Below are positions 30,493 to 35,771 of a stretch of 64,000 nt of DNA, piece by piece (the stretch's first letter is position 1; each line of letters opens with the position of its first letter). The notes under the pieces were generated by a model that saw nothing but the letters and a program-made list of their open reading frames with translations, was not told the DNA's origin and made no database searches. Source of the DNA: Acetobacter lambici. Its GTDB lineage: Bacteria; Pseudomonadota; Alphaproteobacteria; Acetobacterales; Acetobacteraceae. The DNA is taken from NCBI RefSeq assembly GCF_011516885.1, contig NZ_WOTD01000004.1, positions 62,001 through 126,000 of the forward strand, given 5' to 3'. Made by a program: the position numbers and the translations under genes.

Positions 30493-31134
30493 TTAATACG
30501 TCCCATCACTCTCCGGCTGGAACGGATTGGCGTTATCCGGCGCAGCAGGGCGGGCGGGGGCCACAGGGGCGGCAATCCCGGGCTGGCCGGGTTGGGCTGG
30601 AGCACCTGCTGGCATGCCCGTACCATCCTCAACCGGAGCGGCTTCTGGCAATGGTGGGGGGGTGACGGGTTTGGGCAGGGCTGGCAGGAACGGGGCCATA
30701 TCATCCCCTCCGCACTTGACCATGCGCACATCGTAAACCGAACTTTCCAGCACCCCAAGGCCCGGCTCGGCCGCCAGCATCCAGCCTTTAAAAGTTGCCC
30801 CGCCGGGGTGGGTGTCCTGTATTTCCAACCATGCGGCGGCATCGGGCGCGCGGGTTGGAGGGCGCTGGAGGCAGCGGCGGGCCAGAATGTCCAGATTTTT
30901 ATAATGTGTCGGCTCGCCCCCTACTGGCACGGACAACACCTCCACATGGGCGTCCAGTCGGTCCAGAACACGCACAACGGCTGTGCCCTTACCCTGCCAT
31001 GTGCCTGAGGGGTAAACAGCAGGGGGGGGCAGCGGAGTGCCCGCAGCCCATACCGCACCGCCACCAGAACCGGCAAAAGCCAGCAGACCCGTTACCAGCA
31101 GGCGGGAGCACCGCCCCCAGACCAGCATTTTCAT
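30493..31134 (-). CDS. DUF2155 domain protein, exported
   Basis: 213-residue protein with an N-terminal signal sequence (LLVTGLLAFAGSGGGAVWAA), then the DUF2155 core: AVVRVLDRLDAHVEVLSVPVG, YKNLDILARRCLQRPP and FKGWMLAAEPGLGVLESSVYDVRMVKC. The C-terminal 60 residues are Pro/Ala-rich linker. In alphaproteobacteria this family commonly sits beside NDUFA12 and mlaD genes, as here; its function is unknown, presumably in the periplasm. The ATG overlaps the upstream small gene by four bases. Confidence 0.85.
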   Translation of the reverse strand: MKMLVWGRCSRLLVTGLLAFAGSGGGAVWAAGTPLPPPAVYPSGTWQGKGTAVVRVLDRLDAHVEVLSVPVGGEPTHYKNLDILARRCLQRPPTRAPDAAAWLEIQDTHPGGATFKGWMLAAEPGLGVLESSVYDVRMVKCGGDDMAPFLPALPKPVTPPPLPEAAPVEDGTGMPAGAPAQPGQPGIAAPVAPARPAAPDNANPFQPESDGTY

Positions 31135-31396: not shown

Positions 31397-31933
31397 TCAG
31401 GGCAGGCTTGCGCCGCTGCCCCCACTCTGGCCCTCTGCTGCCCCCTTGTTGGCGCGGGTAAGCGTATCGGTCACAGAGAAAATAAACTTGCTCAGGAGTT
31501 GTTCCAGACTGATCGACCCCTGGGTCTGGCTGATGGTAGCCCCTGCCTGCAGGGTCTTGTCATCCCCACCGGGGGAGAGGGCGATATATTTGCCGCCAAG
31601 CAGGCTGTCGCTGGTAATAATGGCCGCTGTATCCGCCGAGAGGTGGATATCCGGGCGCACGGTAAAGACAACATGCGCCTTGAAGGTCTGCGGGTTTACG
31701 CTCTCGCTCTGCACGGTGCCGATTGTTACCCCGGCCAGCCGCACGTCCGAGCCAACACTCAACCCGTCCACCTGCGAGAAATCAGCCCCCAGCCGATACC
31801 CGACCGTATCTGTCTTGCGGCCTTCGCCGACCACTGCTGCGGCCAGCATACCCGCCAGAGCCACCAGCACGGCTGTGCCAGTCAGAAGCTCCGCCAGACT
31901 GCGCCGTGATTTTTCCGCCATTGCCGATGCCAT
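31397..31933 (-). CDS. mlaD: Mla lipid-transport MCE protein MlaD
   Basis: Periplasmic MCE protein that forms a hexameric ring on the inner-membrane MlaFEB transporter and carries phospholipids. 178 residues: N-terminal transmembrane helix (LLTGTAVLVALAGMLAAAVV), one MCE domain (YRLGADFSQVDGLSVGSDVR, LAGVTIGTV, then SDSLLGGKYIALSPG) and a short helical tail. No mlaE or mlaF is adjacent; mlaA and mlaC are at 47.5-49.0 kb. Confidence 0.93.
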   Translation of the reverse strand: MASAMAEKSRRSLAELLTGTAVLVALAGMLAAAVVGEGRKTDTVGYRLGADFSQVDGLSVGSDVRLAGVTIGTVQSESVNPQTFKAHVVFTVRPDIHLSADTAAIITSDSLLGGKYIALSPGGDDKTLQAGATISQTQGSISLEQLLSKFIFSVTDTLTRANKGAAEGQSGGSGASLP

Positions 31934-31989: not shown

Positions 31990-32370
31990 TCACGCCTCGG
32001 GAGCACCCTCGGGCGTCCATGCTTCATAATCGCCGGTTGCGGGCGGGTGCTGGCCGGTTGCGTAAAGGCTACCCTGCGGGTGGTAGGCCTGTGCGGTTCC
32101 GGTCATGTTGGGCTGGTGGGGCAGTTGCCAGGGTTTGCGCTCCTCCGCCGCAATGGGGGCATCAAGCGTATGGTGCAGCCACCCCCACCATTCGGGCGGC
32201 ACGGCGGAGGCATCTTCCCCTTTAAGGTAGATGACCCAGCGTTCGGGGCGCTCCATGCCACCACCCTTGCGGGCCGGGCCGGTTGATTCATAATAACAGC
32301 GGCCATCGGCATCCTTGCCAAACAGCCGACCCTTCCGGCGCGTATGCAGCCATGTTCCGAAATTTGCCAT
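31990..32370 (-). CDS. NADH:ubiquinone oxidoreductase 17.2 kDa subunit (NDUFA12 family)
   Basis: 126-residue accessory protein of complex I, found in mitochondria and alphaproteobacteria. Conserved features include FGTWLHTRRKGRLFGKDADG, YYES, RPERWVIYLKGEDASAVPPEW and WWGWLHHTLDAPI. The ATG at 32370 was chosen: the upstream extension to 32457 is not NDUFA12-like. It lies 56 bases before mlaD, a typical alphaproteobacterial neighbour. Confidence 0.92.
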   Translation of the reverse strand: MANFGTWLHTRRKGRLFGKDADGRCYYESTGPARKGGGMERPERWVIYLKGEDASAVPPEWWGWLHHTLDAPIAAEERKPWQLPHQPNMTGTAQAYHPQGSLYATGQHPPATGDYEAWTPEGAPEA

Positions 32371-32556
32371 GGGAGGATGATAGGACTCCGCATGACCTGT
32401 GGTCCATGTTTTATCGCAAACCACCCGATCAACCGCGCGCGAGCAGGGGGTTGGCAAAAGTTATCCCCCATATCCTCATTTTGCAGGGTGATAACCCGGC
32501 CCCGAACGTGTTTTGTCGGGTTACGCCGCCAGTGCGCGCAGCGGTAACATGGGGCC

Positions 32557-34095
32557 ATGACAACAGCCAGACGCCATTGGAACGGTGTGCTGATGAGCAC
32601 ACTGGAAGCCGCAGCAGACCCGGACGCACCGCTCCGCTCCGTTACCCTGCCCGCAGAGTGGGATGTGGACGCCGCGTCCGCACTTGCACAGCTTATGCCG
32701 GGCGACGGCCCGATCGACCTGCCCACGCTTGCGTCGCGGTGGATCACGGCCCTTGCACCGGACGAGGCCTCGGCCAGATCACTGGTCTGGCTGCTGCTGA
32801 CGCGTCAGGCGGCTCCGGTGGAGGCCGTGTGGCACTGCACATTCGACCGCCCGGCGGGGTTTGTGGTCAATCTGGCCGCCTTTGTCTCCCCCGGGGAAGG
32901 GTTTGCCGCGCGGACCTTTGTTGCGGCCCTCAAGCTCATCTGCTCGGTACTGCGCCAGACGGCCCTGAACAAAGCGGACCAGCGTAATGGTGATCTGCTA
33001 CTACCTGACCTGTTTGTGCCCACCCCCTCCGCCGGAACAGACGCCCCCCCCATGCAGGCCCTCACAGCGGGAGACATCCTGCTGACCAACATGGATGCCT
33101 GTCTGGCAGGAGTCGGGCTTGATTATGATAGCGAGGATGGCCGCGCCGCCGCCTGCGCCATTACGGCACTGGCCACACTGACCGCCCACGCGGGACGTGG
33201 ACCGGAGTCCCTGCCCCTGCCCCCCGTCCGGACCGTACTGCCCGGACTGGGCGAGACCCTGCGCGCGGTCTGGAATGAAGCCGCAGTGGAAACCGATGCG
33301 CCCGTAGCCCCGATTGAGACAGGATTTTCCACCCCCAACCCCATAGATGGGTTGCTTGGCGTGGAAGCCTGCGGGCTGGCTCCCGTGTTTTCCATGCTCC
33401 GCCCAGATGGCAGGCTGGCCAGCAGCACGCGCCAACGGCTGGACGTGCGCGGCTTTACGGTGGAAACCGCACTGGCCGCAGCCCTTGCGGGCGAGACTGT
33501 GCTGCCCCAGCCCGGCCCCAAGGCGCATCTGGCCATGTACCGCGCGCTAACCGGCTTTGCAGACCGCATGCCCGCCCGCCCCGAAACACTGCCCACCCCC
33601 GTAAAGCTCAGGCTGGAGCGGGGCATGCGGCGGATTCTACCCGCACGACATGGTGGTTTTACACAAAAAACCACCATTGGCGGCCACCGCCTGTTCATGC
33701 GTACGGGGGAATACGAGGATGGCACGCTGGGTGAGCTGTCCCTCACCCCCACGCGGGAAAGTCCGATGGTGCGCGGGCTGATGGAAAGCTTTGGCGACGC
33801 CATAAGCATTGGCCTGCAATATGGCGCGCCACTGGAAGCCTACGTGGAAAATTTTGCCTATTCCTGCTTTGGCCCCGCAGGCACGGTGGAGGGCGACCCG
33901 GTTGCCTCCTATGCCACTTCCATGCTGGACTATGCGTTCAGGGCCCTGTCCGACACCTATCTGGACAGACGCCTACCCGACGGCCCCCACCAGGACAGTG
34001 CGTCCGAGCCGGACCCGCTCCTCCCGCTGGACCTGCCCGAGGGGGACGATACACAGCCCACACGCCCACGGCGCAACCTGCGTCTGGTCTGCTAG
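32557..34095 (+). CDS. Degenerate class II ribonucleotide reductase-like protein (NrdJ C-terminal / TSCPD type)
   Basis: 512-residue protein resembling the C-terminal half of alphaproteobacterial adenosylcobalamin-dependent ribonucleotide reductase. Residues 367-395 (GFTQKTTIGGHRLFMRTG, then EYEDGTLGEL) and 415-465 (AISIGLQYGAPLEAYVENF, then SMLDYAFRAL) match NrdJ segments nearly word for word. Residues about 178-212 (MDACLAGVGLDYDSEDGRAA) match the NrdJ LGLGYANLG/YDSDEGRAL area. The NrdJ CNLASLN motif is FVVNLAAFV here, so the conserved cysteine is gone, and the upstream barrel and ATP cone are missing. Catalysis is therefore unlikely; a regulatory or binding role is inferred. Confidence 0.8.
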   Translation: MTTARRHWNGVLMSTLEAAADPDAPLRSVTLPAEWDVDAASALAQLMPGDGPIDLPTLASRWITALAPDEASARSLVWLLLTRQAAPVEAVWHCTFDRPAGFVVNLAAFVSPGEGFAARTFVAALKLICSVLRQTALNKADQRNGDLLLPDLFVPTPSAGTDAPPMQALTAGDILLTNMDACLAGVGLDYDSEDGRAAACAITALATLTAHAGRGPESLPLPPVRTVLPGLGETLRAVWNEAAVETDAPVAPIETGFSTPNPIDGLLGVEACGLAPVFSMLRPDGRLASSTRQRLDVRGFTVETALAAALAGETVLPQPGPKAHLAMYRALTGFADRMPARPETLPTPVKLRLERGMRRILPARHGGFTQKTTIGGHRLFMRTGEYEDGTLGELSLTPTRESPMVRGLMESFGDAISIGLQYGAPLEAYVENFAYSCFGPAGTVEGDPVASYATSMLDYAFRALSDTYLDRRLPDGPHQDSASEPDPLLPLDLPEGDDTQPTRPRRNLRLVC

Positions 34096-34610: not shown

Positions 34611-35771
34611 ATGGCTGACTGGTCCGTTACCCTGCACAACAGCATTCACGACATTCCCGCAAGGGAGTGGGCGCAGTGTGCGGGGCCGGACAACCCTTTT
34701 ATCAGCCATGAGTTTTTAACCGCACTGGAAGACAGCGGCTCCACGGGGCCTACAAGCGGGTGGGTGCCACGGCATGTCTGCCTGCACGCCCCTGATGGAC
34801 AACTGGCCGCTGTCTGCCCCGCCTACCTTAAAGGCCATTCGTGGGGCGAGTACGTGTTTGATCAGGGTTGGGCCCGCGCGTTTGAGGCCGCAGGTGGCCG
34901 CTACTACCCCAAGCTCCAGATTGCGGTTCCGTTTACCCCCGCCCCCGGCCCCAGACTGCTCCTCCACCCCAATGCCCCGCCTGAGACCGCCTCCGTTATG
35001 GCGGACGCCCTGCGCCAGATCTGCGCGGATACGGGCCTGTCCTCCGCCCATGTGACCTTCTGCACCGAAGCGGAAAGCACCGTGCTACACCAGCGTGGCT
35101 GGCTGCCCCGCCTTGGCCTGCAATACCACTGGCACAATAACGGCTACACAACATTTGACGATTTTTTAGCCACACTCTCCGCCCGCAAGCGCAAAAGCAT
35201 CAAACGCGAACGGCGAGACGCCAATGCCGCGGGCCTGACGTTTGAAACGCGGCAGGGAGCCAGCATAACGCAGGCAGACTGGCAGGCTTTTTACCAGTTT
35301 TACCGCAACACGATCGACCGCAAATGGGGGAGCGCCTACCTGAGCGAGGACTTTTTTCCGCTCATGGCGCAGCGTCTGGGTGATCGGGTGGTGCTTATGC
35401 TGGCGCGTAACGGCGCAACCCCTGTGGCCGCGGCCCTGAACCTGATGGGCACAAATACGCTCTATGGCCGCAACTGGGGGTGCGAAGGCAACTGGCCCTT
35501 CCTGCATTTTGAACTCTGCTATTACCGGGCCATTGATTTTGCCATCGCCCACGGCCTGCAACGTGTGGAGGCCGGGGCACAGGGGGAGCACAAAATCCAG
35601 CGTGGCTATGTGCCTACCCTCACCCACTCCGCTCACTGGCTGCAAAACCCCGCACTGCGCGATGCGGTGGATCGGTTTTTGCAAGCCGAGCGCCCCGCCA
35701 TACAGGCCGAGGCCCAAGCCCTGAACGCCCTAACCCCCTACCGGCAGGACCACCCGCCCCAAAACCCGTAA
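34611..35771 (+). CDS. FemAB-like N-acyltransferase (COG3146, DUF482)
   Basis: 386-residue GNAT-fold protein of the peptidogalycan-biosynthesis/COG3146 group. Features: FISHEFLTALEDSGS, YDEF-like segments including YVFDQGWARAFEA, the basic RKRKSIKRERRDANAAG stretch, DRKWGSAYLSEDFF and FCYYRAIDFAIAHGLQ-like C-terminal block (FELCYYRAIDFAIAHG) with AQGEHKIQRGY. Substrate unknown; the family is common in proteobacteria. It starts 18 bases behind the RidA gene and is probably co-transcribed. Confidence 0.88.
   Translation: MADWSVTLHNSIHDIPAREWAQCAGPDNPFISHEFLTALEDSGSTGPTSGWVPRHVCLHAPDGQLAAVCPAYLKGHSWGEYVFDQGWARAFEAAGGRYYPKLQIAVPFTPAPGPRLLLHPNAPPETASVMADALRQICADTGLSSAHVTFCTEAESTVLHQRGWLPRLGLQYHWHNNGYTTFDDFLATLSARKRKSIKRERRDANAAGLTFETRQGASITQADWQAFYQFYRNTIDRKWGSAYLSEDFFPLMAQRLGDRVVLMLARNGATPVAAALNLMGTNTLYGRNWGCEGNWPFLHFELCYYRAIDFAIAHGLQRVEAGAQGEHKIQRGYVPTLTHSAHWLQNPALRDAVDRFLQAERPAIQAEAQALNALTPYRQDHPPQNP

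Follow-up and report, generated by a model that had tools for sequence, protein, structure and literature searches.

The best described relatives of the gene reported here are the B12-dependent class II ribonucleotide reductases (RNRs) of Alphaproteobacteria, the NrdJ proteins (PRK07562/NF005736; R. sphaeroides structures 7b9q and 7b9p). In Pseudomonas aeruginosa the class II enzyme is split, and in the descriptions given by PMC4520616 and PMC5704485 the separate polypeptide NrdJb has redox cysteines and works with the catalytic NrdJa; section 2.4 of PMC9669993 covers its domain content, including a C-terminal TSCPD/IscU-like domain. The same section calls the C-terminal domain of class II RNRs IscU-like and states that its role had not been reported up to then (2022). 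A further precedent is UL45 of human cytomegalovirus, in the account of PMC5469499 a non-catalytic homologue of the RNR alpha subunit which is kept for another function and acts on host signalling.

The gene reported here lies in a window of 64,000 nucleotides from Acetobacter lambici (contig NZ_WOTD01000004.1) and resembles alphaproteobacterial NrdJ in its locus, its colinear sequence, the predicted fold of the retained part and its TSCPD domain, as well as, outside the acetic-acid-bacteria clade of the Acetobacteraceae, in a double NrdR box upstream. However, the encoded protein has less than half the length of NrdJ, lacks the first half-barrel, the finger loop, the N-x-C-x-E motif and the zinc ribbon, and carries a conserved tail of the type PLLPLDLP ... 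RRRxLRLV which NrdJ does not have. Like NrdJb it is a separate polypeptide with a C-terminal TSCPD domain, but the zinc ribbon is missing, parts of the barrel are attached, and an NrdJ partner scoring over the curated cut-off is absent from 148 of 150 family genomes. UL45, in turn, is viral and, going by PMC5469499, no reduced bacterial NrdJ. NrdJb and cytomegalovirus R1 are thus the closest precedents, and neither is the same thing. Among the matches listed, the literature on class II RNRs, NrdR and RNR pseudoenzymes contained no description of such a protein, nor did the main text of a G. oxydans screen (PMC12041372) contain any of the terms searched for it. Taken as a whole, the explanation that we favour, with a probability of about 0.6, is that nrdJ was reduced in place and that its product, no longer catalytic, was kept as a scaffold which takes part in dNTP supply or in replication.

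The initial annotation, made from the letters of the sequence, had derived the gene from NrdJ, and the profile searches bear this out. TSCPD is the sole domain found by Pfam, with 30.5 bits against a cut-off of 22.8 (residues 370-466), and residues 356-472 match positions 967-1083 of NF005736, the NCBIfam equivalog for B12-dependent RNRs, with 141 bits against a cut-off of 1737; the full-length family score is therefore not reached. TIGR02504 gave no match at the locus, PF02867 (the ten-stranded barrel) no Pfam match listed up to E 1, and a search of PDB sequences with phmmer none up to E 1. In a profile-profile alignment with hhalign, a 21-row alignment of the short family matched 18 full NrdJs with a probability of 100% (E 5.5e-44). 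The closest named relative of the 512-aa protein is that of Acetobacter lovaniensis, with 97% identity.

Table 1. Features of the reduced nrdJ locus (positions in the window; residues of the reduced protein unless NrdJ is named).
Feature	Position	Strand	Basis or remark
DUF2155 gene, synteny marker	30493..31134	-	Pfam PF09923
MlaD gene, synteny marker	31397..31933	-	Pfam PF02470
NDUFA12 gene, divergent neighbour, synteny marker	31990..32457	-	Pfam PF05071; the ORF as listed may begin ahead of the true start
Conserved upstream element AAAGTTATCCCCCATATCCTC	32457..32477	+	Invariant in 7/7 aligned Acetobacter upstreams
Reduced NrdJ gene, 512 aa	32557..34095	+	Intact 512-codon ORF; NF005736 and TSCPD matches; dN/dS
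N-terminal segment kept from NrdJ (residues 7-47; colinear with NrdJ 14-59)	32575..32697	+	hhalign score 26.3; reached by 0/200 column shuffles
Second half-barrel remnant, residues 104-312, colinear with NrdJ about 494-740	32866..33492	+	hhalign and structure superposition
TSCPD domain, residues 370-466, aligned to NrdJ about 963-1100	33664..33954	+	Pfam PF12637; model pLDDT 89.6
Tail motif DPLLPLDLP, residues 486-494, in predicted disordered tail	34012..34038	+	Conservation; pLDDT
C-terminal motif LRLVC	34078..34092	+	Pattern [LFV][RK][LV][VIL] close to the C-terminus
RidA/YjgF family gene, 35 bases 3' of the reduced NrdJ stop codon	34131..34592	+	Pfam PF14588
FemAB-like/GNAT gene, downstream	34611..35771	+	Pfam PF04339

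All retained segments are colinear with full NrdJ. Residues 88-350 align to it with an hhalign E of 8.8e-13, and two weaker segments join residues 71-94 to NrdJ 132-155 (score equalled by 9 of 200 shuffles) and residues 320-337 to NrdJ 862-879 (equalled by 2 of 200). The protein has no counterpart of NrdJ about 158-489, where the first half-barrel and the finger loop lie, nor of most of 740-960, and the zinc ribbon at the end of NrdJ is gone as well. The absence of the first half of the barrel, already noted in the initial annotation, is thus borne out, and the active-site motif N-x-C-x-E is missing as well: it occurs in none of 105 unique reduced ORFs, a set that counts pieces at contig edges too, compared with NPC[SG]E in 18/18 full NrdJs. 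Likewise, the double CxxC of the zinc ribbon ends all 18 full NrdJs and none of the 105 reduced ORFs. The cysteine motif CNLASLN of NrdJ had been read as FVVNLAAFV in the reduced protein; here the register was shifted, since it is SLNLMTF of NrdJ that lies opposite VVNLAAFV, but the conclusion that the cysteine was lost stands, because no cysteine faces that of ACNLASLN. The ATP cone is absent as described, but this is no loss, as Pfam (E <= 0.01) did not find one in the two full NrdJs scanned (L204 and L198) either. The TSCPD alignment holds no invariant cysteine. Judged by its sequence, the reduced protein would be catalytically dead.

A structure model built from 32 alignment rows (mean pLDDT 80.8) provides the comparison with class II RNRs that had been suggested. 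Its best VIA-align match was R. sphaeroides NrdJ (7b9q_A; Z 25.0, 315 residues at 2.7 Å, model residues 8-345), followed by T. maritima NrdJ (Z 21.1) and then class I alpha subunits, and the same R. sphaeroides protein was the top Foldseek match (E 2.8e-6). Modelled alone (pLDDT 89.6), the TSCPD domain had no Foldseek match at E <= 0.001; its best VIA match was IscU 1q48, which at Z 5.0 and an rmsd of 6.3 is weak. This similarity would be too faint to count by itself, but is in line with the published IscU-like reading of the class II C-terminus.

Is the gene a paralogue of NrdJ, as the initial annotation had it? Full-length NrdJ (~1,200 aa) adjoins a divergent NDUFA12 gene at 16 of 20 alphaproteobacterial loci, hand-picked outside the family among the matches listed from a search of 385 genomes; at 14 of the 20, MlaD and DUF2155 genes are also present, and NDUFA12 is missing at four. 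Family loci with the reduced gene (18 in 17 genomes) show the same neighbours, NDUFA12 at 15 and MlaD with DUF2155 at all 18. The whole arrangement, including the RidA and FemAB-like genes, surrounds an NrdJ frame of 1,232-1,296 codons at four loci (L193, L199, L202, L204). Beside 16 named reduced genes (L148-L162, L164) NDUFA12 was not detected, and MlaD and DUF2155 remain there; the synteny counts of the named set come from contigs of very unequal length. A full NrdJ at the NDUFA12 locus combined with a reduced form elsewhere did not occur among the 40 and 80 loci compared. The reduced gene therefore sits at the ancestral NrdJ locus, which makes it an orthologue and not a paralogue; with the same neighbours and colinear sequence, it is by these marks the positional orthologue of alphaproteobacterial nrdJ. 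That it represents the ancestral nrdJ, shrunk in place in the Acetobacteraceae to a non-catalytic protein, is very likely. As identical neighbours stand beside full NrdJ, they are uninformative on any new role of the reduced gene.

A true paralogue, with nrdJ duplicated and one copy then reduced, would find some backing in G053 and G130, two family genomes which carry both the reduced and a full form. However, it is the reduced gene that occupies the ancestral locus; the additional, full NrdJ which these genomes carry lies elsewhere and, in a tree of the TSCPD domain, is nested among the full NrdJs of other families, which fits a later acquisition. Furthermore, the genome of the window has no NF005736-type NrdJ, and a full one occurs in only 2 of 150 family genomes. 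Duplication is hence rejected on synteny and appears very improbable. The tree (FastTree, 129 columns) separated 24 reduced from 40 full forms; only this unrooted split, taken without support values, is used here. The full NrdJs of G053 and G130 (L097, L099) share with that of Acidisoma (L198) the lack of NDUFA12 neighbours and the nested position among NrdJs of other families, and all three may possibly reflect re-acquisition of a class II RNR.

The window protein was matched in 136 of 150 Acetobacteraceae genomes. Among the 14 others, G133 (with a wider profile) and G097 hold contig-edge pieces, G045 and G125 hold diverged forms, and seven are assemblies of 72-85% completeness; in the near-complete G062, G137 and G066 the gene was found neither at the locus nor in profile searches and must therefore be dispensable in some lineages. 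The forms of G045 and G125 keep the barrel remnant and have lost both the TSCPD domain and the tail motifs, so that neither is needed everywhere. Listed with INTERMEDIATES and variants is the form of G038, an 801-codon frame (780 aa from the first ATG; its Pfam scan used a 774-aa piece starting five codons later) which covers NrdJ 108-157, 490-913 and 963-1085. It still has the second half-barrel but neither the catalytic half nor the zinc ribbon. By its composition, this form is a probable intermediate between full and reduced NrdJ. In searches of 385 alphaproteobacterial genomes, drawn evenly from the class, the N-terminal part of the protein found full-length matches only in Acetobacteraceae, among the matches listed; those in other Alphaproteobacteria covered mostly residues 110-279 and lay inside frames mostly of NrdJ size. 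Two records of the short form stand under wider names, one as Proteobacteria (L174) and one, a contig-edge piece, as Rhodospirillales (L177).

Against six Acetobacter relatives, dN/dS of the reduced gene was 0.028-0.157 (six pairs, two methods), the check on selection which the initial annotation had proposed and whose result agrees with its view that the gene is no decaying pseudogene. Slow decay, with the frame intact by chance, might be suspected from the three near-complete genomes without the gene and from broken or split frames in the small genomes G126 and G136, but it is at odds with the low dN/dS, with an intact frame in 31 diverse aligned relatives and with the conserved tail motifs, and is the least probable of the alternatives considered, to the point that we reject it. 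The broken or split frames are L111 and L112 in G136, which stand towards the two ends of a single contig and may be due to an assembly overlap, and L113 in G126. Since the gene was kept though its catalytic parts are gone, it probably has a second job, which supports the initial annotation in its claim that this remnant of NrdJ was retained for something other than RNR catalysis.

The region upstream of the reduced gene gives a first indication of what this job might be. As a plain consensus word for the NrdR box failed, matching nothing in L001 and in the window only at the level of chance, a two-box model was trained on the regions upstream of 21 nrdA genes from the family; in this set, L266 and L267 (other NrdA types, with the cut point probably wrong) had no good pair, and L252, L253, L257, L258, L259 and L262 had one strong box with the other under 5 bits. 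With this model, 39 of 42 family loci showed a double NrdR box upstream of the reduced gene at p <= 0.05, 37 of them at <= 0.01 (300 dinucleotide shuffles each; the loci represent 39 genomes, with the pairs L068/L101, L070/L110 and L081/L109). The pairs were spaced by 32 bp at 37 loci, and at 31 the second box lay 32-43 bp before the start. Outside the acetic-acid-bacteria clade, which we sorted ourselves by nearness to named genera, 38 of 39 loci (36 genomes) had the pair, L115 being the single failure; inside it one of three had it (L105, and not L103 or L104). All of 10 named loci outside the clade also carried a pair, in a set that overlaps the 42 in that several loci look identical or belong to the same species, as did 15 of 17 full NrdJs of other Alphaproteobacteria. 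Control upstreams of five neighbouring genes (60 shuffles each, starts estimated by tblastn) had a double box in 9 of 197 cases, the worst being dsbB with 4/35.

Within the acetic-acid-bacteria clade, the pair was found at only 3 of 30 loci at p <= 0.05 (L143, 0.007; L144, 0.013; L146, 0.003), with L145 at 0.053, and in the window it reached p 0.083 at a start-to-start spacing of 30-32 bp and 0.189 with wider spacings. The pair thus looks mostly lost or eroded in this clade, where present control by NrdR is putative. The NrdR protein itself is encoded in 142 of 150 family genomes, that of the window included. What PMC12051234 gives on the binding sites is that NrdR binds boxes with spacers of 14-17 bp, and the spacing of the predicted boxes lies within that range. 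A predicted double NrdR box, the site of the RNR repressor, would tie the gene to dNTP supply, and as the gene keeps such operators outside the clade, it may be a regulator in a wider sense than that of the initial annotation. In Acetobacter, the conserved upstream element of Table 1 lies at about the same place as the NrdR boxes of relatives outside the clade. Across the acetic-acid-bacteria clade this element, which differs from the NrdR boxes, is represented by the word TTATCC in 48 of 49 unique upstreams, at a distance of 86-98 bases from the start, and by the exact TTATCCCCCATATCC in 34 of the 49, counting only sequences with distinct last 150 bases.

Which RNR could such a protein serve? 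The initial annotation had suggested a partner of full NrdJ, an idea that fails because full NrdJ over the curated cut-off occurs in just the two genomes G053 and G130 out of 150, some of which are incomplete. The genome of the window (completeness given as 100%) has none of the NF005736 type; it encodes a class I NrdA of 668 aa with PF00317 and PF02867, in which Pfam found no ATP cone at E <= 0.01. Apart from this NrdA, another contig of the same genome holds a gene for an 803-aa class II RNR-like protein (L002, G000:C36; RNR-II_ins_dom, phrog_367 of PHROGs), perhaps of viral or mobile origin. In G045, one NrdA match (L265, G045:C1:3123139-3125007) reads through one TGA.

A partner or modulator of the active RNR, which would bind NrdA (or NrdJ) and tune its activity or oligomerisation, accords with the NrdR-type operators common to nrdA and the reduced gene in relatives within the family, with the RNR-alpha-like predicted fold and with the ATP cone that Pfam failed to find in the class I NrdA of the window genome. 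The distribution argues against it. The reduced form is retained in G053 and G130, in which a NrdA query finds only their full NrdJ and no close NrdA, as well as in G013 and G143, where NrdA was matched at no more than 31-40% identity; conversely, it is absent from G062, G137 and G066, which have the common NrdA. An obligate partner of NrdA is thereby disfavoured. In addition, the NrdJ region with the effector loops, which from RNR structures we take to lie in the deleted half, is gone. On balance, a modulator of this kind seems unlikely.

In the tail, LP[LFM] occurs in 95 of 98 unique sequences, 89 of these as P[LM]LP[LFM], and a terminal [LFV][RK][LV][VIL] in 95 of 98, the two motifs being separated by a linker of variable length; in the model, residues 480-512 have a pLDDT under 50. 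Motifs of the LP[LF] type, such as AQIALPF, serve in binding to the replication clamp, and clamp motifs carry a glutamine. AQIALPF itself stands close to the N-terminus of a DnaA/Hda-like protein of the same genome, whose score does not reach the Hda cut-off. As DPLLPL in the tail lacks this glutamine, binding to the beta-clamp is kept as an idea only.

More broadly, the leftover scaffold may have been recruited to a role unrelated to dNTPs, for instance as a replication-clamp adaptor, in the assembly of complex I or, by way of the IscU-like domain, in the handling of metal or Fe-S. Such a role would agree with retention of the gene under different RNR types, with the erosion of NrdR sites in the acetic-acid-bacteria clade, where another element holds a fixed position, and with the resemblance of the tail to AQIALPF. 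Against it stand the missing glutamine of clamp motifs, a TSCPD alignment without invariant cysteine, the loss of this domain in G045 and G125, and the NrdR operator kept at 38 of 39 loci outside the clade; the neighbours, being the same beside full NrdJ, speak for no new role. We regard a role of this kind as rather improbable.

For the in-place reduction of nrdJ to a retained scaffold we envisage the following course. With dNTPs made by another RNR, which in most of the genomes examined is the class I NrdAB, the catalytic half would have been lost, while a second role of the protein, in dNTP supply or replication, persisted. The reduced protein would be produced at times of dNTP shortage, or would have been so ancestrally, and act as a scaffold that binds proteins. 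Its remaining RNR core and its flexible tail, with the docking motifs P[LM]LP[LF] and terminal [LF][RK][LV]V, would hold a partner, for which the active RNR alpha subunit and a replication protein are candidates. The parts of this model carry unequal weight. That the protein serves dNTP supply or replication has a little under even odds, any specific partner is doubtful, and the scaffold with its conserved docking tail is a guess.

Although it is speculative and somewhat doubtful, we may go one step further and suppose that alphaproteobacterial NrdJ itself does more than catalysis and has a further function in dNTP supply or replication, which is masked while the protein is an active enzyme. 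The Acetobacteraceae would have stripped off the catalytic half and kept that function, together with a new docking tail and, outside the acetic-acid-bacteria clade, the NrdR operator; the result would be an RNR pseudoenzyme under NrdR control which serves whichever RNR the cell uses. To our knowledge, RNR pseudoenzymes are known only from viruses. Here, the gene of a cellular RNR appears to have been pared down where it stands, across a bacterial family in which an intermediate and, in many genera, ancestral-type operators are still present. The interest of the reduced NrdJ lies in that a natural protein devoid of catalysis, with much else kept, makes other roles of NrdJ directly testable in tractable acetic acid bacteria.

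Finally, a word which we take to be a DnaA box, TTATCCACA, was observed upstream of the reduced gene and counted in the same manner as TTATCC. It was not seen in 17 upstreams of full NrdJ and in 197 control upstreams, occurs in 3 of 49 acetic-acid-bacteria upstreams, and outside that clade is present in 9 of 43 unique upstreams in forward and in one in reverse orientation; at L170 and L175 it touches NrdR box 1.
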